The notes below the pieces were generated by a model. It ran no database searches. It saw only the letters and a program-made list of their open reading frames with translations, and was not told the origin of the DNA. 64,000 bases of DNA from Malania oleifera (Eukaryota > Streptophyta > Magnoliopsida > Santalales > Ximeniaceae), in contig NC_080428.1 of assembly GCF_029873635.1 (NCBI RefSeq), positions 66,433,101 to 66,497,100 on the forward strand, given 5' to 3'. Position numbers and translations under genes: made by a program. Every line of letters begins with the position of its first letter. Position 1 is the stretch's first letter. Below, piece after piece: positions 25,101 through 35,683 of the stretch.

Positions 25101-28100
25101 CGTTTGTTGATTGGATTATATCGCTTGAACAACTAACCATCTCAAATTCCCTTTTAGTAGCTAAGTTGCCATCATCCATGGGACATATCCTAAACTTTGT
25201 GGCTAATGTGCTTGAGCAGCTTCTTCATAATAAGAAAGAAATGATGGAGTGGATTAGGAGGTCTAATATCAATGTGAATTACTACCCCTTGCTGTTATTG
25301 AGATTGGTTATTATATTGTGTTTGCTTTGTTTGAACTCTGGGAGGTACTATGACTTCCTATTTGACTTGCTGGGCAAGAGTCACGTTATTTCTCAACTTC
25401 CACGGAATTTTTTGGATGTCCTTCGGAGAGGACGAAAACGTAATAATGTGGCTATTGAAGTTGTTGCTGAAGCATTTAAGAAGATAGATAATCCCCTTGT
25501 GATAGTGAGTTTTGGAAATACTTGTTCTGGATATTTATGTCGTGATGCCATCTTTGTAGATATGAAGGCCAATCAAAGCAAGAAGGACATTTTACAAGTA
25601 CTTTTTCCAAAGAATAATGAAGCTTTTAAAGACGAAGTTGTTTCTGTAAAATTTAGGACTACAGATTCATGCAGTGGAGGTTCCTCTTTAAGCAGCAGTA
25701 ATCAAAAAGATAAATCTGAAAACGACATTTCACAAGTAGTTGTTCCAAATAATATTGAAGCTTCACAAGTTGGTTTTAATTTTAGAGCTACAGATTCATG
25801 CAGTGAAGGATTATCAATGAGTAGTAATCATCAAGAAGGTAATTCTAAGCTTGCAGACTTGAAGGATGCTTCAGGGGATCATGACTTGAAGACTAAACAC
25901 AGTATGGGAGAAGGGAACGCACAGAAGATCTGTGAAACCTTATGGGGAACTTTTGATGTTTTAAATTCAGATACTGGAATGGTTAGCAATGTAAACAATT
26001 TCGTGTCTGATGCTCCCAGAGTTAAGGTAACATCAAAGGGCTTCATGTTATGTCTATTGCCAGTGCAGCATTATCACTGGTTCCCCATGTTTGTTTTCCA
26101 CTTTAGGAATCTTAACATGCTATCCCTTTTTTCCAGGTGGAGGTGGAGAAAGTTATTAAAAATATTACATCTGCGTTGACCAAATCTCTTCAGAGCCTTC
26201 CTGAAAGTGAAGCTGGAAACCTTGTTCAAGAAGCTAATATCATGCTCAATGAATTTAAGCAAATTTTTTCTGCCTTGGATGTCAGGTCAGTACAGAGAGG
26301 CAACTTGCTTAGTTAAAATATGATTGTAGTTAACTGACCAGGATGCAGAACCTCATTTGTGCCTATATGGCATATTGCCCATTTACTATCTATTGGTCAT
26401 GTTATTGTTACTTTCCCTAGTTTAATGAGGATTCTTGTGTTTTTCCATTTTATCCTTTAACTATATCTCTGCTTCTTCTTTTTTTCCCTTTTTTTTTTTT
26501 CTTTTTGTTTTGTTTTTGGTCCATGGGAATGGACACTTGCCTTTGAAAAAGGAAGACTATTAGTTATTGAAGAATTTTTTTCAGTCTTATTGCTAATTTC
26601 AAATGAAAATTACTTTTCTCCATTTTTGGCTTTCATAATTGCAAGGAATGCATTCAGATTCTTCAGTTCTTGTCTTTTGCAACTTGGAATATAGGGACAC
26701 TTATGGGTAAAAGCATGAAAATTATGGACGCAATGATTAGAAGACGAATTAATATAATTTGCCTTCAAGAAACTAAGTGGATGGGGGAGAAAGATAGAGA
26801 TGGTATTCCTTTGCCATAAGTGAGGGTTATTAATAAAATTAAGAAAGGAGGTGCTGCCCTCTTTTATTGAAAAAAAAAAAAAAAAAGATTTAAACTTTGG
26901 TACACTGGAAAAGAAAAAAATAAGGATGAAGTAGGAATTATTATAGGCAAAAACTTAAAAGATAACATTGTTGGTGTAAACAGAGTAGGAGATATAATTA
27001 TAAAATTCAAGATGGTATTAGGCCAAAGAGATAATAAATATCATTAGTACTTATTCTCCCAAACTAGGAGAGTAGATCATTTATCATGTAAGGATTGTAA
27101 AGTTATTCCAGGTGAAAGCCTAACCATAGAGCATAGAGTCTTAATGTTAGATATATGTATTAAAAATATGAAAGAAACATGATAAAATAAATTAGTGTAA
27201 GATGCCAAGGTGGTGTAATAATAAGAAAATATAATAAAATTTTAAGATAAAATGAACAAAGATGGGGATTGGACTACAGAGGAGGGGATAGAAACATCTA
27301 CTCTTTGGAGTAGATTAGCTAGCTCTATTAAAATGATAGCAAAAGAGATTTCAGGTGAATCAAGAGAAAGATTCTCGAATAACAAAGAAAGTTGGTGGTG
27401 GGGTAAATATGTCCAAAAAGTCGTAAAGACAAAAAGAATTTTGTTTAAAACGTGCCAAAAATGTAGGAATATGATAACTTTGAAAAGCATAAGGAAGCGA
27501 GAAAAAATGCAAAAAAGGCCGTTAGGGAAGCTAAATATAGATCATTCAATAGTTTGTATGATAGATTAGATATAAAAGAAGGGGAAAGAGATATATTTAA
27601 ACTTGCTAAAGTTAGAGAAAGGAAGAGTAAGGACTTAGGAAATGTAAATTGTTAAAAAGTGAGGATGATATTGTCTTGGTTAAGGATGAAGACATTAAAA
27701 AAAGATGGTGAAGTTACTTTAGTAAATTTTTTAATGAAAATCAAATAGAAAGCTTAAACTTAGATTTGACAAATAAGGAAAAAACTAAAAATATGAGATT
27801 TATTCGCAAAATTAGAATTAATGAAATTAAGTTTACATTAAAAAAGATGAAAAATGGAAAAACTATAGGACCTGATAACATCCCAATTGAAGTTTGGAAA
27901 TGCTTAGTTAACAAACAGGATTTTATGGTTAATTAGTTAATTTAATAAAATTATAAAAAGTAAAAAAAATACCAGAGGAATGGAGGAAAAATACTTTAAT
28001 ATCTATATACAAAAATAAAGGAGATATTCAAAATTATAATAAATATTGTGGGATTAAACTTATGAGTCATACGATGAAATTATAGGAAATGGTAGTTGAA

Positions 28101-31100
28101 CAAAGATAGGGTTAGAAACGAAGGTCTTAGAAAATAAATTTGGTTTTATGTCTAGGAGATCTACCACAGAAGCTATATATCTTTTCAGAAAATTAATGTA
28201 AAATATTAAAGAAAAGAAGAGAGACTGGCATATGGTATTTATTGACCTAGAAAAAGCATGTGATAGGATACCTAAGGAAGTTCTATGGTGGATTTTAGAA
28301 AAAAAAAAATGTGTATGTAGAGGTATATTGATATCATTGAGGACATGTACGATGGACTAATGACTAGTGTAAGGACTATAGATGGAGAAACTAGAGAATT
28401 TCCAATCACCATAATTGTACATCAAGGATTTGCTTTGAGCCCTTAACTTTTTGCTTTAGTGATGGACCAACTGACTAAGAGTATTCAAAATGAGGTTCCA
28501 TGGTGTATGTTGTTTGTAGATGATATTAATTTAATTGATGAAACTAGAGGCGGAGTAGAGGCTAAGTTAGAATTATGGAGAAGCTTTGGAATCTAGAGGT
28601 TTTAGGATAAGTTGAAATAAGATGGAATATATGAAATGTAATTTTTGTAATGGTAGGAGGTATGTTGGAGACAAAGTTAAACTTGATGATGAAAAAATAA
28701 ATAGCACTTGTAGATTTCGATACCTTGGATCTATTATGCAAGCTGAAGGAGAAATTGAAGATGATGTAATGCATAGAGTTAAAGCAGGTTGGGTAAGATG
28801 GAGAAGTGCTTCCAGCCTACTTTGTGATTGTAGAATATTGTAGAAATCCCAAGTATCTTTGAATATCTTGGAGTAATTTAGGGAAATATATATATTGTAT
28901 ATTATTGAAAGAGATCTGTTTAGGAGATTAAACCTACCTATTAAAGGCGGAAACTATCGGCCAAAGTGGAGGTTCGATGACCTCTGAATCTCACAAGGTC
29001 CTCCAACAGAGTTTCACTAGGTCCTCCAACAGAGTTTCAGTCTGCGATTCGCCCTATCTCTACATCAGAGGGAAGACCTCTCGAGTTAGGGTTTCAAACC
29101 TTCATTTTTCGTCAGTGTCGCCGACTACCTCCCATTGCTCGTTGGCAAAGCCTTTTGAGTCTGTGACAACCCTCGCCCCGTCATGTCGTCGTACCTTCTC
29201 CTTTCGGTGTCAACGTACCTTCTCCTCGCGGTGTCACCGTACCTTCTCCTATTCGTCAGTTAACTGTTCGCGCATCACTCGCTCGCTCGCTTGAGTCGCC
29301 CGCCGTTACATTCTTCACAAACCATGGAACCAGATCATATGGAGGTTACTGATGAAGAACACATTGACTATGATTTGAGCGAGCCAACTATGGGTGAGAA
29401 ACTTGAAAGCTTAAATTTACTGAATAATGTTTCTGCAAGTTACCGCAGATTTGTTCAGATGAGTGTCTCCGCATCAAATGCTAAACCTCTGTCGGCCGAC
29501 CCTCAAAATGATGTCGAAAAGGCAGAGACCACTAACGATCTGGTACAGTACATGGTCCTCCAGCGGGACCTGATCGACACTTGGCCGCTCGGTAGCGTCA
29601 TCACCCATGGCTACCACGCCTCAGTCACCGCCATCTGGATGCATAGGGAAGACTCGCACACATTGGATTACTGCAACTATGAGAAACAAGATTCTTCTCC
29701 TCACACAAAGCTTCCAAGTGCCGACTCTATTCATATTCGGCTTAGGCAAGCCCTACATGTTGATGATCGTGCACCTTTGTTAGATTGCCTTCACACAAGA
29801 TGAAAAGGTTATCTCAAATTCCACAAATATTTCTTCGGGTTCTTTAGCCCAAAGAGGTAATTTTTTGCAAGCCTTGAATATAATTTCTAAATCCAAAACT
29901 CCTTGGATTATTGATTCTGATGCTTCTGACTACATGACCGATGCCTATCATCTTTTCTCATCATATTCACCCTGTGCTGGAAATTTGAAAGTTAAAATTG
30001 TTGATGGATCACTCGTCTGTCGCAGGCAAAGGGAATATCTGACTCTCTAACTCAATCACGCTAGAGTTGGTTCTTCATGTTCCTAATTTATCCTGCAACT
30101 TACTATCCATTAGCCAGTTAACTAAAAATTCCAATTGTTCTGCTAAATTTCTTCCCTCTCAATGTGTTTTTCAGGACCTATCATCGAGGAAGACGATTGG
30201 CAGTGCTAAGGAGTATAAGGGACTCTACTACTTTGAGGAGGCTAATGTGAGTGAACAATGTAAAACTACTATTTGTGATTCTGCATCTGTTTCTATTGAA
30301 TAGTGAAATTCTGTTATGACATTCTAGGATGGGTCATCCAAATTTTCAATATCTAAGACGTTTATTTCCTTCCATTTTTTCAAATAAAACGTCTTCTGAA
30401 TTTCAATGTGAGATTTGTGAACTTGCAAAACACCAGCGTAATTCCTTTCCAAAATCCACATACAAACCATCCAGACCCTTTATTATGATTCACAGTGATT
30501 TATTGGGGGAGGGGGGGGGGGGGGCTCGTGCTCTTTTAATCACACTCACACGAGATGGTTTGTTACTTTTATTGATGATCATACTCGTATTTGTTGGGTT
30601 TACTTGTTGAAAGATAAAACTGAAGTTCATTATATTTTCTCTAGTTTCCACTCCATGATTCAAACATAATTACAAACTCACATTCAAAGTTTACGCACTG
30701 ATAATGGTACGGAATGTTTCAATGATATCTTGGGACATTATCTTCAAGAAAATAGAATTGTTCATCAAAGTTCTTATGTGGATACCCCTAAAAAAAAATG
30801 GGGTTGTTGAACGTAAAAATAGGCATATTCTTGAAGTAGCTCGTGCATTGATGTTCACTACAAATATGAAAAAATATTTTTGAGGCGATGCCATTTTAAT
30901 AGCTACACATCTCATTAATCTAGTCAAGTTCTTTCTTTTGCCACTCCTCTCTAGAAACTCCAGGAAAGGTTTTCCAATACTTGGCTCCACTATAATCTCT
31001 CTCTGAAAATCTTTGGATGTACTGCATTTGTTCATGTTCATGCTCACAATCAGGATAAATTGAACCTCGTGCCATTAAGTGCATTTTTATTAGTTACTCT

Positions 31101-34100
31101 CCTACTCTAAAAGGCTACAAACGTTATGATCCTGTCACAAAAAAGATGTTTGTTAGCCTTGATGTTACATTCTTTTAAACCACTCCTTACTTCCCAAAGC
31201 CCTCTCTTTAGGGGAAGAAATGGAGTGAAGATCGGTTCTTTGCTTTCTCTGTTGATGAATCTGTGCCATACATTGAGTCTATCATTGCATCATTCCCTGA
31301 GTCTACCATTGCATCATTTCCTGACCTGTCATGTACAAAAGATCACTTAACCTTAGGGGGAGATGTAGAAAAACAAAACAACACAGATATACTTATTTAC
31401 TCAAGAAAGTCAAACACAAAGAATAGGGAGAATCTCATACCCGAGGCACCAAGAGAGTTAGAACCAGTGATAGCTCCGAGCAACCATGAGTCCACACCCA
31501 ATCTTGATAAGGTAATAGATGGTCATGAGCTTCCTTCTGATAAGTCTGTACCCGATGACATCAATTTACCCATTGCAGTCAGAAAACAAATCAGGTCTTG
31601 TACTCAATATTCCTGACCAAAATACATGTCTTATAAAAGTCTGTCTACAGATTATCGTGCTTTTACTTCTAACCTTGACAGGATAAAATTCCAAAGAATA
31701 TCTAAGAAGCCTTGGAGATTCCTAAATAGAGGGAAGCTGTCATGGAGGAAATGTTTGCTTTGGAAAAGAATGGAACTTGGGACGTTATAAATTTTCCGAC
31801 AGGGAAGAATCTAGTTGGTTGTAAATGGGTCTTCACAGTGAAATATAGAGTTCATGGGACAGTTGAACGATATAAAACCAGACTCGTTGCAAAAGAGTTT
31901 ACACAGACCTATGGCATTGACTACACAGACATTTGCACCAGTGACAAAACTGAATACAATTATGGTCATCCTGTCCTTGGCAGCTAACTTAGATTGGCCA
32001 CTACAACAACACGACATTAAGAATGCATTTCTAAATGGCGAGTTAGAAAAAGAAGTCTACATGACGATACCACTAGATTTCAGCAAGGTGAAGAAAACAG
32101 AGTATGTAAACTCAAGAAGTCCTTGTATGGACTCAAGCAATCTCCCAAAGCATGGTTCGATAGATTTACGAAAGTGATAAAGAATCAAGGATATCAATAA
32201 GGGCAATCAGACCACACTATGTTCTTCCAGCAATCTGAAAGTCGGTAAGAAAATAATTCTAAGAGTATGTTGATGATATAATCCTAACTGGAGATGATAC
32301 AGTGGATATGGAAAGGTTAAAGAAAGTCCTAGCTGCTGAGTTTGAAGTTAAAGATCTGCGACAAATGCGGTACTTCTTGGGAATGGAAGTTGCTAGATCA
32401 AAAAAGGGTATCAGTGTCTCTCAATGAAAGTATATCCTTGATTTCCTAATCGAAACTGGCATGCTTGGATGCAAATCTAGTGAAACCCCGATTGAAGCAA
32501 TAAAGAGGGTCAAGGACTGTGTAATACCAGTTGAAAAGGAGAGGTATCAGAGATTGGTTGGTAAACTAATTTACCTATCGCAGACCAGATCCGACATTGC
32601 GTTTACAGTGTGGTAAGTCAATGCATGAATTCACCGAAAAATACTCACCTAGATGCTGTGTATAAATCCTTAGGTACCTCAAGGGTTCTCCGAACAAAGG
32701 ACTCTTCTTCAAGAAATGCGAAACAAGGAAGTAGAAATTTTCACAGATGCGGATTGGGTAGGATCAGTGGAAGATAGAAGGTCTACCACCGGATATTACA
32801 TCTTTGTATGTGGAAATTTAATTACTTGGAGGAGCAAAAAATAGAATGTAGTGGCTCGAAGCAGTGCTAAAGCTGAATTCAGGGCAGTTGCACAAAGGAT
32901 ATGTAAAGGACTGTGGTTACGAAAACTCTTGGATGAATTACAAATCCCGATGAAATTTCCTATTAAACTCTATTGTGACAACAAAGCAGCCCTCAATATC
33001 TCTCTCAATCTAGTTCAACATGACAGGACTAAGCATGTAGAAGTGGACCAACATTTTATCAAAGAGAAGGTTGAAGAAGGAACCTTCTATCTGACTTATG
33101 TACTTACCAAGGAACAAACTACATACATCTTTACTAAAGAGCTAGCCCGCCAAAGCTTTGATGATTTCATTTGCAAGTTGGATATGATCAATATATATGA
33201 TCCAACTTGAGGGGGAGTGTTGAAATCCCAAGTATCTTCGAATGTCTTGGAGTAATTTAGGGAAGCATATATTGTATATTATTGAAAGAGATTTTAGGAG
33301 ATTATTTCCATATTTAGATCTTCCGATTGTATTATAAATATTGTAAATTGGTCTAAACAAAATTATTCAAGAAATACAGAAATTATTCATTATGATTTCA
33401 TGGTATCTCTCTCTCCTTGACACCTAGGTTTTGAGGATGAGTTCTCTAACATGGTATCAGAGTTAGGCCTTGGGCTGCTTGGCTCATCCGTGGGTTGGAC
33501 TTCTCCTCGCCCCATTTTCCCCCATGGGCTCTCCTCGCCTCATTTCCCCTATGGGTTTGAGGGGGAGTATTTGTGTGCGTTCAGTCTTACATCGTCTTTA
33601 TGAGCAGTTCCAAAGCTAGTATAAGATCCTCTTAGCTCTCTCTCCTTGACACCTAGATTTTGAGGATGAGTTCTCTAACAAATACCCTTAAAATTAAAAG
33701 GAAAGTTTTATCGGACGGTTATAAGACCAACTATGCTATATGGTTCAGAATGTTGTGCAACGAAAAAAAAGAATATCCAAAAAGTAAAATTCTCGAGATG
33801 AGAATGTTTAGATGGATGAGTGGTATAACACTGAAAGATAAATTAAGGAATGAACATATTCGCGGTAGTTTAGGTGTAACTCTTATAAAAGATAGGGAAG
33901 GGACGAATTAGATGGTATGGACACTTAACATAGGTCACATAGTGCGCCAATGAGGAAGAGTGAGTTAGTTACTGTGGGGGGTAGTAGAAGGGGTACGGGT
34001 GGACTAGAAGTAACTTGGAAGAAGATAGTGAGTTAAGATTTAATAGTCCAAAATTTGTCAAAAAAAAAAGGTTCACGATAGCATAAATTGGCGAAAAATG

Positions 34101-35683
34101 ATTCATATAGCTGATCCCACCTAGTGGAACTTAAGGCTTGTTGTTATGTTGTTATAATGATTGATATCCCTTAGATTTGTCCACAAGCTACACCCATCTT
34201 CCTACTTTTTGGTTATTATTCCTCAGTTGATTGTTATGTTGTTACCATCATCTGCTTTCCAAAGGACCCAAGCTTTACACCCTATTTCCGATGAATTGTT
34301 CCCATAGTAGGAATTGAAATTTTGTGTGGAAATGGTATGAGAACTTAACCTGCCCCTTTCAGAAATGCTGTGCGTTCGCTATGAGTAAGGTGTGCCTTGC
34401 AAGATGAGAAAGAAGTGAATTGGAGAATTGTAGAAATATAAAAATTGTAGAGGGAGAGACGGAGGTTATTGGAAATTGGTTAGGAGAGATAAGAAGGGAT
34501 AGAGTTCTATAGAGAAGGAAAGAGATAGATCAAGAGGGAAGGCGATAGGAAACGGATAAAATGGCATGGGGGGATGTATAATTAAAAGAAGCTACATTTT
34601 GATACCATACTCGTCTTGTTGATGTTGATGTTTACAAATGAGGGAACCCCATCCCTATTTATACCAACTTCCCAGGTGTCCTAATCCACTAGAGACAATA
34701 CAGATGAGAACATATCAAATGAAAGATAAAGAGTACTCCCAACTTACAAATCAAACCACAAGATTTATTCACATTTTTAAATTGTAACAACCCAAGTGGT
34801 TTTGAAGCTGAATCTTTGTAGCCATTTCCCATATGATTTTCCTTGAGCAGAACACATGGGCAATAACTTGATTCTGGACGATATCTTGCTTCCCCTATCT
34901 GGGTGATCCCTCTTGCCTTGGCCTAGGGCCCTAGTCTGATTGTTTGATCCTCATCATGTGTTCAATTGGTCAATATTTTTACTTATGATGCTCGGCCACT
35001 TAGGTCATGTCTATACCACGTGGCTGATTATACCCAATTAGACATCATTTTCTTAGCAGGTGCACATAGATGGGCACATACACACTCCAAACTCATTCAA
35101 TTTAGAAACAAGTAAAACTGATATTCATAATTTCAAAATAAAAAGATCAATTCAAAATCACTCCTAGTTTCTATTCCTACAAGCTGCCCGTCCTACAACA
35201 GTCACAATAGCCAGTCACCCATTATGCAGCACTAGCAAAAATCTGAACCTCGGATCACACATTGACCTTTATGTGAAATATCCTGTATATGGACAGTCCT
35301 TGCTACTTTCTTGTGTGATTTATGCTTTATAAGTGATTTTTTTTTTTGGGTGAAACTGCAGTGAGATGGAACTACAGAAGAACATTCCAACAGTTTTAAA
35401 ACTTATTGGGGGCCTGCAGTCAAGAAGACCAAGGTTGGAGTCTTTCTTTAACCAGCTAAACTTGGGAAATGATTCAAATCCCATGAACCAGGCACTCAAT
35501 TGCTCCGAGGCTGATGAAAATAGCAACTCTGATGACATTAAGACCAACACTTCTTCAGCTGCAACTACTGCTTCTGGTAGCCAGATCAAGGGCGACGCAC
35601 AGGAGCAGCTGGAAAGCAAAAGCAGCAAGAGCAAAGGCAAACCCAAGAAGGGAAAAAAGGGTAAAGGAGGTAGGAAGAAATAA
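6309..35683 (+). CDS. Dual SF1 helicase (SEN1-like plus UvrD-like), TRANK1-like; 5' exon missing
   Basis: Joining 6309-6863, 7114-8295, 8499-8823, 9597-9852, 9949-10165, 10313-10665, 10776-11306, 19925-21122, 21659-22012, 22174-22411, 23223-26026, 26137-26285 and 35362-35683 gives one open frame of about 2,827 residues. Every junction is GT-AG and the phases agree. Order along the protein: N-terminal SEN1-type region; UPF1/SEN1-like helicase (Walker A about residue 238, DEAAQ about 541); UvrD-like helicase (Walker A about 1061, DEVQD about 1350, TRTRQR about 1600); helical-repeat region; basic tail. All core ATPase motifs are intact, so an active enzyme is plausible, probably ATP-driven unwinding of nucleic acid. 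The substrate is unknown. The first exon opens with a valine codon after an acceptor, and relatives have about 20 more residues before it; I could not find that exon. Two introns hold 8.6 and 9.1 kb of mostly transposon DNA, so gene finders may split this locus. Confidence 0.88.
8981..9371. mobile_element. Foldback MITE in helicase intron
   Basis: The left arm (from TGTAAAAGGG and CTAATAGTCAGACAAC, 8981 to about 9120) and the right arm (to CTAACTATTAG and TTTTACA, about 9235-9371) are near-perfect inverted complements over about 130 bp. It lies inside the 773-bp intron 8824-9596. No clear target duplication could be fixed. Transcription through it would give a long hairpin. Confidence 0.75.
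9133..9236. repeat. SINE-like segment in MITE loop (possible Au SINE 3' part)
   Basis: The loop between the MITE arms contains GGCAGCCTGGGGCAC, then CCGCCCCTTCCCCAGACCCT, then GCGGGAGCTT and CACCAGGCTACC before a T-run. This resembles the 3' part of the plant Au SINE family as I remember it, with both edges carrying matching A-run/T-run and GGCAGCC/GGCTACC inverted ends. No polymerase III box was confirmed. Confidence 0.4.
10313..11306 (+). CDS. Exons linking the two helicase modules, with UvrD Walker A
   Basis: Exons 10313-10665 and 10776-11306. The first completes the tail of the SEN1-like half ([11 protein letters not shown]...). The second leads into the UvrD-like half with an acidic stretch and then GRSGTGKTT (11068-11094), the phosphate-binding loop. 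It ends with phase 2 at 11306 and its frame resumes 8.6 kb away at 19925. No stop separates the two halves, so the fusion is real at the sequence level and not two neighbouring genes. Confidence 0.88.
11307..12673. other. Left part of 8.6-kb intron
   Basis: AT-rich intron sequence with scattered short frames and no recognisable protein. A short ATGTATGTATGTACAT-type stretch lies near 11725-11765. Nothing else could be supported. Confidence 0.5.
13404..14999 (-). pseudogene. Copia reverse transcriptase and RNase H
   Basis: Reading right to left: [36 protein letters not shown] and YGLKQSPRQ (to 14462); a stop where tryptophan is expected; then the catalytic YVDDM with RNase H motifs ([43 protein letters not shown]) to 13544. 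Further RNase H C-terminal sequence continues toward the LTR. Several stops are TGG to TAG/TGA changes. Confidence 0.88.
15005..16599 (-). pseudogene. Copia protease-integrase region with frameshift
   Basis: The upper part (to 15589) has a degenerate protease site, [12 protein letters not shown], where DSGCS-type sequence is expected. It continues through the GAG-pre-integrase [10 protein letters not shown] and HCILGKQ to the integrase core ([29 protein letters not shown]). A frameshift near 15600-15650 moves to the second part, [16 protein letters not shown] to the integrase C-terminus ([17 protein letters not shown]), which ends at 15005. Confidence 0.88.
16600..17397 (-). pseudogene. Copia gag, stop inside zinc knuckle
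   Basis: An open frame from ATG at 17397 covers 264 residues of gag: [14 protein letters not shown], then [25 protein letters not shown], and a basic stretch before CAFCHERGH. The zinc knuckle CX2CX4HX4C is cut by TAG at 16600-16602 exactly where tryptophan is normal, then KKDC follows in frame. One substitution therefore separates gag from pol. Confidence 0.9.
17635..17646 (-). promoter_or_regulatory. tRNA-iMet primer-binding site
   Basis: The minus strand reads TGGTATCAGAGC next to the LTR at 17649. It primes minus-strand DNA synthesis in copia elements and fixes the element orientation. Confidence 0.9.
18755..19924. other. Right part of 8.6-kb intron
   Basis: No gene or clear repeat seen. 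It ends with the acceptor CTTATAAATATAG before exon 19925. Confidence 0.5.
19925..22012 (+). CDS. Exons for the UvrD-like helicase core
   Basis: Exons 19925-21122 and 21659-22012. Visible motifs in order: [12 protein letters not shown]; Walker [11 protein letters not shown] (about 20550-20576); motif [35 protein letters not shown], joined across the intron to DVLLYNFF; and motif [16 protein letters not shown]. This is the UvrD/REP SF1A pattern with all ATP-hydrolysis residues kept. The intron 21123-21658 has normal borders. In bacteria such enzymes act on DNA, but this eukaryotic branch is poorly characterised. Confidence 0.9.
22174..26285 (+). CDS. Exons for the C-terminal helical-repeat region
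   Basis: Exons 22174-22411, 23223-26026 and 26137-26285. The start is rich in TPR-like helix pairs ([58 protein letters not shown]), the solenoid expected next to the helicase in TRANK1-like proteins and a likely protein-binding surface. The long middle exon is 2.8 kb. Its end has an in-frame tandem duplication of serine/asparagine-rich sequence (25582-25848). The exon 26137-26285 is predicted helical ([16 protein letters not shown]...) and ends in phase 2 for the last exon. Confidence 0.88.
25582..25848 (+). repeat. In-frame tandem duplication within helicase exon
   Basis: Two diverged units of about 43-46 codons follow each other. Each has DI-QV, a P-NN-EA block, an F-R-TDSCS block ([10 protein letters not shown] versus [10 protein letters not shown]) and an S-S-NQ/NH-Q end. 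The frame is kept. Divergence suggests an old duplication. Confidence 0.8.
28945..29323 (+). other. GC-richer leader of captured mosaic, with triplicated 23-bp repeat
   Basis: This segment is richer in C and G than its surroundings and resembles a 5' untranslated leader. Three consecutive copies of a CGTACCTTCTCC...CGGTGTCA unit lie at about 29188-29255. It leads to an ATG at 29324 in good context (AAACCATGGAA). Its gene of origin is unknown. Confidence 0.45.
29324..29803 (+). CDS. Chimeric ORF: Utp12/WDR43-like, PTRHD1-like, Utp12/WDR43-like
   Basis: An intact 159-codon frame with no gag similarity. Residues 1-34 ([20 protein letters not shown]) and about 119-159 ([20 protein letters not shown], then [12 protein letters not shown]) look like adjacent parts of a plant Utp12-domain protein of the WDR43/UTP5 type, a small-subunit processome factor. 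Residues about 35-118 ([20 protein letters not shown], then [12 protein letters not shown]) look like the N-terminal half of a PTRHD1-type peptidyl-tRNA hydrolase 2 domain protein. After 29803 one lost base shifts the rest of the Utp12 part (DEKVIS) out of frame, and copia protease sequence follows at about 29822. Family names are from memory of the families. Whether it is transcribed is unknown; it may be only captured debris. Confidence 0.55.
   Translation: MEPDHMEVTDEEHIDYDLSEPTMGEKLESLNLLNNVSASYRRFVQMSVSASNAKPLSADPQNDVEKAETTNDLVQYMVLQRDLIDTWPLGSVITHGYHASVTAIWMHREDSHTLDYCNYEKQDSSPHTKLPSADSIHIRLRQALHVDDRAPLLDCLHTR
29823..33210 (+). pseudogene. Copia pol (protease to RNase H), decayed
   Basis: Protease is [12 protein letters not shown] (about 29905; normally DSGASDHMT). 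GAG-pre-integrase is [14 protein letters not shown], then [12 protein letters not shown], and integrase has HSDL, then [14 protein letters not shown] and RTDNGTE in shifting frames. Reverse transcriptase is at 31742-32400 ([35 protein letters not shown]) and RNase H at about 32730-33210 ([31 protein letters not shown]). A long G-run interrupts the integrase start at about 30505-30524. Many stops and shifts; inactive. Confidence 0.88.
33219..33451 (+). mobile_element. LTR of composite copia element
   Basis: Starts TGTTGAAATCCCAAGTATC after a GAGGGGGAG purine tract. Its first ~100 bp match 28839-28940. Around 33400 it passes through CATGGTATC, which looks like an LTR end plus the start of a primer site, directly into TRIM-family LTR sequence, suggesting a recombination point. 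Confidence 0.6.
33401..33680 (+). mobile_element. TRIM-like unit, second copy
   Basis: A truncated LTR end (CACCTAGGTTTTGAGGATGA, then GTTCTCTAACA, to 33451) is followed by the primer site TGGTATCAGAG (33452-33462), a non-coding spacer with CTTGGCTC and CCGTGGGTTGGACT, a purine tract (33556-33567), and a complete ~109-bp LTR 33572-33680 ending in the same CTCTAACA. This matches the 1568-1790 unit in order and sequence. Confidence 0.65.
34166..35361. other. Rest of 9.1-kb intron
   Basis: No gene seen. The stretch contains purine-rich tracts near 34440-34560 and ends with the acceptor AAACTGCAG before the last exon. Confidence 0.5.
35362..35683 (+). CDS. Last helicase exon with basic tail
   Basis: The exon completes a serine codon from 26285 and reads [20 protein letters not shown]..., then a serine/threonine-rich stretch, and ends with a lysine-rich tail ([18 protein letters not shown]) before TAA at 35681-35683. 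The tail resembles a nuclear or nucleolar targeting signal. Its match in phase and in style to the rest of the gene across a 9.1-kb intron supports it as the true 3' end. Confidence 0.82.

Follow-up and report, generated by a model that had tools for sequence, protein, structure and literature searches.

Host gene pieces in place of gag in a decayed copia retrotransposon of Malania oleifera and in related elements

The window, the whole 64,000-nucleotide stretch of Malania oleifera DNA analysed here, contains a decayed copia element in which the gag slot is occupied by a host-derived open frame, made up of a Utp12/WDR43-like part, a PTRHD1-like part and a further Utp12/WDR43-like part. The element, now dead, very probably comes from a copia family that has replaced gag with host sequence time and again, at least in part from spliced mRNA and presumably through template switching.

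Results

Structure of the element

The features of the element are as follows.

28839..28930, + strand: truncated 5′ LTR remnant, which repeats with 33218 onward in a pairwise alignment
28931..29085, + strand: leader of the element, which retains a remnant of the gag N-terminus, from comparison of the window frame with the gag-bearing relative L059
29086..29338, + strand: captured 5′UTR of a Utp12-type mRNA, about 100 nt of it absent from the gene at C6
29324..29803, + strand: chimeric open frame of 159 codons, with its stop
29339..29429, + strand: Utp12/WDR43-like part A, corresponding to the beginning of C6 exon 2 (identity to L039 is 97% over 29332-29429)
29430..29678, + strand: PTRHD1 (PTH2-family) piece, from inside exon 1 of the gene at C3 and in its native frame (the match spans 29429-29685)
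29679..29823, + strand: Utp12/WDR43-like part B, from the remainder of exon 2 into the start of exon 3, with the intron absent and a frameshift near the end
29824..33209, + strand: copia pol remnants, namely protease, gag_pre-integrase, integrase-like, reverse transcriptase and RNase H-like (the protease, integrase and RNase H labels were assigned by eye)
33210..33217, + strand: a run directly before the 3′ LTR, which we take to be polypurine tract-like
33218..33402, + strand: 3′ LTR, matching the LTRs of sibling copies

The stretches 28839-28930 and 33218-33402 form an LTR pair, as in Ty1/copia elements, with the 5′ member truncated. In the sibling copy L032 the 5′ LTR is longer and is followed by what is presumably a primer-binding-like stretch. 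The leader frame of the window copy gives a 13-residue reading, and the gag-bearing L059 has GQSRGLMTSESYEGQ at the same position. Pol of copia type was recognised in broken frames 3′ of the open frame by Pfam matches to gag_pre-integrs (2.3e-8) and RVT_2 (5e-11), and Pol_BBD was found by Pfam in sibling copies; the remnants in the window are interrupted by several stops and frameshifts. An earlier, sequence-only reading of this DNA had placed the open frame inside a copia element, where gag should be, and the gag_pre-integrase and reverse transcriptase domains do lie downstream of it. In the window element only an N-terminal stub of gag was found, the slot itself being filled by the Utp12 and PTRHD1 pieces. 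The element is a gag-less derivative of a Ty1/copia LTR retrotransposon.

The copia element sits within an older, decayed non-LTR, LINE-like element; frames on both sides (26650-28838 and 33681-34120) read by eye as portions of a single LINE-like protein. A short direct repeat (33391-33451 and 33620-33680) adjoins the 3′ LTR and flanks a primer-binding-like stretch; the segment 33391-33680 resembles a miniature LTR element (TRIM) joined to the end of the copia element. Further downstream, at 35380-35683, lies a lysine-rich end of a reading frame resembling the last exon of a host gene, in which no Pfam family was found at E 0.01.

The chimeric open frame and its source genes

The open frame was as first described, with 159 codons from 29324 and a stop at 29801. 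The 1.49-Gb assembly that contains the window was searched with the DNA of this region, and 22/22 candidates were scored. Query positions 1-106 and 356-499 matched Utp12-type copies and positions 106-362 matched C3:111629973-111630229, which upholds the proposed division into three parts. This C3 interval is the single other genomic match of the middle part of the frame (91%, E 1.6e-97) and belongs to the PTRHD1 source gene at C3:111.63 Mb. The gene is intact, and its two exons, joined by eye, gave a Pfam match to PTH2 at 5e-24, so the PTRHD1 label stands. The Utp12-type source is a multi-exon gene at C6:20.90 Mb, five coding pieces of which, joined by eye, matched Pfam Utp12 at 2e-16; we take these pieces to resemble the C-terminal half of WDR43. 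An origin from two host loci, as had been claimed, is thus seen directly in the same genome. A chance frame or an unrecognised gag was considered and is excluded by the matches to the source genes.

These names rest on the source genes because the domain matches of the open frame itself are weak or absent. Its PTH2 match (0.0084) is below the cut-off and covers only profile positions 2-42 of 115, the complete domain being present in the C3 gene, and no Utp12 match is among the Pfam matches listed for the frame. The captured Utp12 part corresponds to the stretch preceding the Utp12 domain and to the start of that domain. A search of solved structures in the PDB with the open frame gave no match.

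A protein search with the C6 gene returned 17 rows at 15 loci, which correspond to the C6 gene itself, the window copy and 13 further copia copies. Comparison by eye with sibling L032 showed the Utp12 5′UTR of the element to be about 100 nt longer than the C6 exon; since this sequence is absent from the C6 gene, that gene may be a close paralogue of the true donor. A possible second parent of Utp12 type, C6:20821325, was seen by eye to be another gene, presumably PWP2-like. Four supposed intron-containing Utp12 parents proved to be copia copies of the AAA type described below.

Splicing and order of the captures

In the element, the Utp12-type sequence runs from exon 1 (5′UTR) through exon 2 into the opening bases of exon 3, and two introns are absent; positions 29086-29180 match exon 1 of L039 at 85%. 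The Utp12 piece is spliced cDNA. Intronless host sequence of this kind is what a gene-transducing, Bs1-like LTR element carries, and the window copy also holds host pieces from more than one locus (C6 and C3). Intron loss, a check suggested in the earlier reading, was seen for Utp12; the PTRHD1 piece lies inside exon 1 and spans no intron, and because it lies within one exon an RNA origin is not demonstrable for it.

In the C6 gene the two Utp12 parts are 15 nt apart, and about 15 nt also lie between them in several copia copies, in agreement with the suggestion that the parts are adjacent in the source. Relative to the siblings, the PTRHD1 insertion replaces about 15 nt of Utp12. Among 13 aligned sibling rows, 12 have parts A and B of Utp12 unsplit and the thirteenth (L028) is deleted there; the PTRHD1 stretch is in none of the 13. 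As the siblings have unsplit Utp12 without PTRHD1, the Utp12 capture came first and PTRHD1 later. The Utp12 capture is family-wide and earlier, and was then multiplied, and the PTRHD1 capture is later and belongs to the line of the window copy. Nesting of PTRHD1 in Utp12 by stepwise capture had been proposed and is borne out by these siblings. Other copies were examined for the same cargo, as had been suggested: Utp12 was found in 13 others, and PTRHD1 only in the window copy. Of 19 sources examined, nine sibling copies had LTR pairs that could be compared, with L035 left out (its pair is on opposite strands); these pairs differ by 3.3-9.0%, so the copies are not young.

Coding potential

Between the PTRHD1 piece and its parent, 23/257 sites differ, nine of them at CpG. 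The changed codons comprise 15 non-synonymous changes (194.7 sites) and 4 synonymous changes (60.3 sites), and the piece evolves neutrally. In ten rows of the Utp12 part, codon positions 1, 2 and 3 differ by 6.6, 6.2 and 5.1%, with no third-position excess. Divergence over these ten rows is 5.6% in the Utp12 part (29339-29822 and the siblings), against 8.2-10.5% in the pol stretches that follow and 12.6% in the leader. Constraint was considered as a reason for the low Utp12 value, and is not supported, as a third-position excess is lacking.

The Utp12 frame is open into the protease in 5/9 sibling rows; the window copy is frameshifted instead. An in-frame run into the protease was also seen with other cargos described below, namely AAA, RPL6 and part of the SKP1 sequence (in L046, L047 and L050, respectively). 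In the window copy the order of a Utp12-like part followed by copia protease is as originally read, but the frameshift near the end of the open frame puts it out of frame with the protease region. Similarly, the ACCATGG start does have a good context, but it lies within the 5′UTR of the host gene, where the host triplet is not ATG; the host Utp12 start codon corresponds to window position 29339.

Other host cargos in the same slot

Relatives of the window element were found by searches with the leader and with the protease region. In five copia copies, including L027, a different host piece, from an AAA-ATPase gene, lies in the same Utp12 leader. Seven copies of this AAA type are listed, among them L021, L022, L023, L024, L027 and L046. 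The cargo was identified by DNA match, and its donor is a single-frame gene at C10 62.908 Mb (Pfam AAA 2e-16). The AAA cargo is circularly permuted: in the host segment B is directly followed by segment A, whereas the element has A and then B.

Four further cargos were confirmed by Pfam, which was run on one member per cargo. An RPL6 cargo is nested in the Utp12 leader in L045, L047 and L049 (Ribosomal_L6e 2e-28), SKP1 is carried by L050-L052 (Skp1 8e-25), RPS16 by L053-L055 (Ribosomal_S9 4e-14) and ARF-GAP by L057 (ArfGap 2e-25); no donor was identified for the ARF-GAP cargo. The PTRHD1 piece, present in one copy only, is the seventh confirmed host gene. The RPL6 and SKP1 cargos are uninterrupted, and the corresponding rows from elsewhere in the genome each fall into two parts; we read these splits as introns, and both cargos look spliced. 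The AAA and RPS16 source sequences found are single frames, for which reason an RNA origin is likewise not demonstrable for these two. The RPS16 cargo is also circularly permuted, as seen at sequence level against one host locus (L058) and in the order of rows against two more. In L053-L055 it is nested in a further piece, presumably AMP deaminase-like (AMPD-like); no Pfam family supports this piece, and it was excluded from the confirmed cargos.

Between cargo and protease, directly ahead of the latter, the SKP1, RPS16, ARF-GAP and AMPD-like relatives have in common a stretch reading approximately DREIGIDEKMLRQGLFRLADQTSFSYYRASS.

Other relatives have gag, or no cargo, at this position. L059 has the same leader and the same protease joint with gag in between (Retrotran_gag_3 1.2e-4 and Retrotrans_gag 0.0027, both below cut-offs), L056 has a gag piece (Retrotran_gag_2 at only 0.093) followed by the AMPD-like host-like piece, and L048 has the leader and no cargo. 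The loci were not drawn at random: 11 were chosen by leader matches (10 with cargo, and L048 with none), and L056, L057 and L059 were chosen for long open frames (gag with the AMPD-like piece, ARF-GAP, and gag, respectively).

Frequency of cargo and gag

The survey covered the best 150 of 18974 protease candidates and the best 150 of 3195 gag candidates, and its counts of cargo and of gag are lower bounds for both kinds. One of the six confirmed cargos lies up to 2.2 kb upstream of the protease, on the same strand, in 48/150 scored protease relatives: RPS16 in 14, SKP1 in 8, RPL6 in 2, Utp12 in 4, AAA in 4 and ARF-GAP in 17, one relative having both RPS16 and SKP1. The AMPD-like piece without a confirmed cargo was found in 10/150, three of which also have the gag motif; the gag motif alone was found in 17/150, which brings the gag motif to 20/150 in total. 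The remaining 75/150 were assigned neither a cargo nor a gag type. Two of these 75 were read, L059 with gag and L048 without cargo. Gag is undercounted, because L059 is among the 75 while its gag is absent from the scored gag list.

A single opposite-strand cargo, an RPS16 row, was seen upstream of the protease among the 150 scored relatives, and no listed cargo row lies 0-6 kb downstream of it. In 16/20 gag cases, from rows preselected by eye, the gag motif is 648-710 nt before the protease. A recount took in every listed cargo row, all 150 protease matches and 34/150 gag matches; none of the other 116 gag matches is near a protease match. Away from the listed protease matches lie 24/41 RPS16 rows, which include host genes. 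The relative at C4:33149296-33150328 has both RPS16 and SKP1 rows ahead of its protease.

Sequence shared at the joints

Eight joints, with registers placed by eye, were tested against random breakpoints. Three share 9/10 bases (P 3e-4 each), and two of these share 8 in a row. At the 3′ joint of the PTRHD1 piece, from PTRHD1 to Utp12, 9/10 bases are common to both sources (P 3e-4), a few of which have since changed in the window copy. The 5′ PTRHD1 joint has 1 shared base (P 0.45), and its best window gives 6/10 (P 0.08). The AAA/Utp12 joints share 8 bases in a row (P 2e-4 or less), but the two are the same sequence pair read in both directions and are not independent. Where the AAA cargo is closed, 8/10 bases are shared (P 0.004) with an exact run of only 2 (P 0.17), and the RPS16 closure has 7/10 (P 0.02) with a run of 3 (P 0.05). 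The joint from the AMPD-like piece into RPS16 has 7/10 (P 0.018) and a run of 4 (P 0.016), and that from RPS16 back into the AMPD-like piece has a run of 4 (P 0.014) and 5/10 (P 0.22).

Discussion

Both source genes, the nesting of one capture in the other, the order of events, the loss of introns from Utp12, shared sequence at one PTRHD1 joint and a range of other cargos are observed in this family. The simplest account of them is that reverse transcriptase switched from element RNA to host mRNA, and back, where the two have short stretches in common, and we infer that the joints arose during reverse transcription. In an ancestor, reverse transcription would have switched from element RNA into a spliced host mRNA of Utp12/WDR43 type and back, losing nearly all of gag; what remained would be a gag stub, the host 5′UTR and the initial host codons, running in frame into the protease. 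The gag-less form would then have multiplied, presumably on Gag supplied in trans by relatives that share its leader and protease joint; gag-bearing relatives with both exist in the same genome. The line leading to the window copy may have undergone another switch, with entry where Utp12 and PTRHD1 have a stretch in common and exit where they share almost nothing; this would have placed a portion of PTRHD1 exon 1 within the Utp12 piece. A circularly permuted cargo would result if reverse transcriptase jumped once within the host RNA and left it by the stretch through which it had come in, and entry and exit at different places would give a plain insert such as PTRHD1.

The PTRHD1 piece could instead be filler copied at the DNA level from the C3 gene during repair of a break in the window copy itself. 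That the piece lies within one exon and is in the window copy only, that about 15 nt were replaced and that one joint has almost no shared sequence would all fit such repair. The other joint, however, shares 9/10 bases, the piece is in sense and in frame, and the spliced appearance of the Utp12, RPL6 and SKP1 cargos makes RNA capture an established route in this family; we consider filler unlikely. For the AAA and RPS16 permutations, an origin from circular host RNA or circular DNA, and not from two jumps between linear RNAs, seems rather unlikely to us. In favour of a circle, both cargos begin and end at an internal position across which the host gene runs without a break, and are sealed at a second position, but the closing points fall at weak internal coding repeats (8/10, P 0.004; 7/10, P 0.02), and ordinary back-splicing does not account for the AAA case, since that gene consists of one frame without interruption. 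Template switching is preferred for the permuted cargos and for PTRHD1.

The sequence-only reading had also raised the prospect of a new chimeric protein. The 159 codons are open and both joints are in the native frame, and maize Bs1 is a published precedent for an expressed chimera (PMC13317346). Against this, the PTRHD1 pattern is neutral, the Utp12 part lacks a third-position excess, the chimera is a single copy, its start codon is not that of the host, and its frame is not joined to the protease. An expressed and selected new gene is accordingly very improbable, and a functional new protein from this frame is unlikely; most likely, the chimeric frame arose as a neutral by-product.

Most descriptions of gene capture by LTR elements of plants are single cases or catalogues. 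The replacement of gag by host pieces presumably sets the present family apart from maize Bs1, judging from what we take Bs1 to have lost. Bs1 is described as an LTR retroelement with pieces of three host genes that form a chimeric gene (PMC13317346; PMC7264820). The two are alike in being LTR elements with pieces from several host genes, and differ in that here one slot holds different cargos in different family members, with nested captures and two that are circularly permuted. LTR elements captured 672 and 1343 host genes in rice and sorghum, a catalogue across many elements which, in the available text, describes no single family with a fixed exchange slot (PMC3726574). In pepper, disease-resistance genes were copied by retroduplication; this case concerns one gene class, and the part of the report at hand describes no replacement of gag (PMC5664825). 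That plant LTR elements capture host genes is already well known, and serial, nested and permuted replacement of gag within one family appears to be new. A literature search found no family of this exact kind; most subscription papers were outside its scope, and absence is unproven. A gag-deficient copia group, BARE-2 of barley, is presumably packaged by the Gag of a relative. BARE-2 was formed by abnormal template switching with another retrotransposon and, as far as the accessible text goes, is described without host gene cargo, in which it differs from the present family (PMC13317346).

The gag position may be an exchange slot, filled repeatedly by host mRNA sequence that can enter in frame with the protease and so may restart Pol; the gag-less forms would spread on the Gag of siblings, and the permuted cargos would record the entry and exit of reverse transcriptase on one host RNA through a single short shared sequence. 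We advance this tentatively, with slightly less than even confidence. The family provides an ordered record of capture, with dozens of cargo copies in one slot, nesting, joints resolved at sequence level, source genes and gag-bearing relatives. With it one can test whether the switch is guided by short shared sequence, and whether the replacement of gag is tolerated or favoured because elements can use the Gag of others. Permuted cargos would be a clear signature to seek elsewhere.
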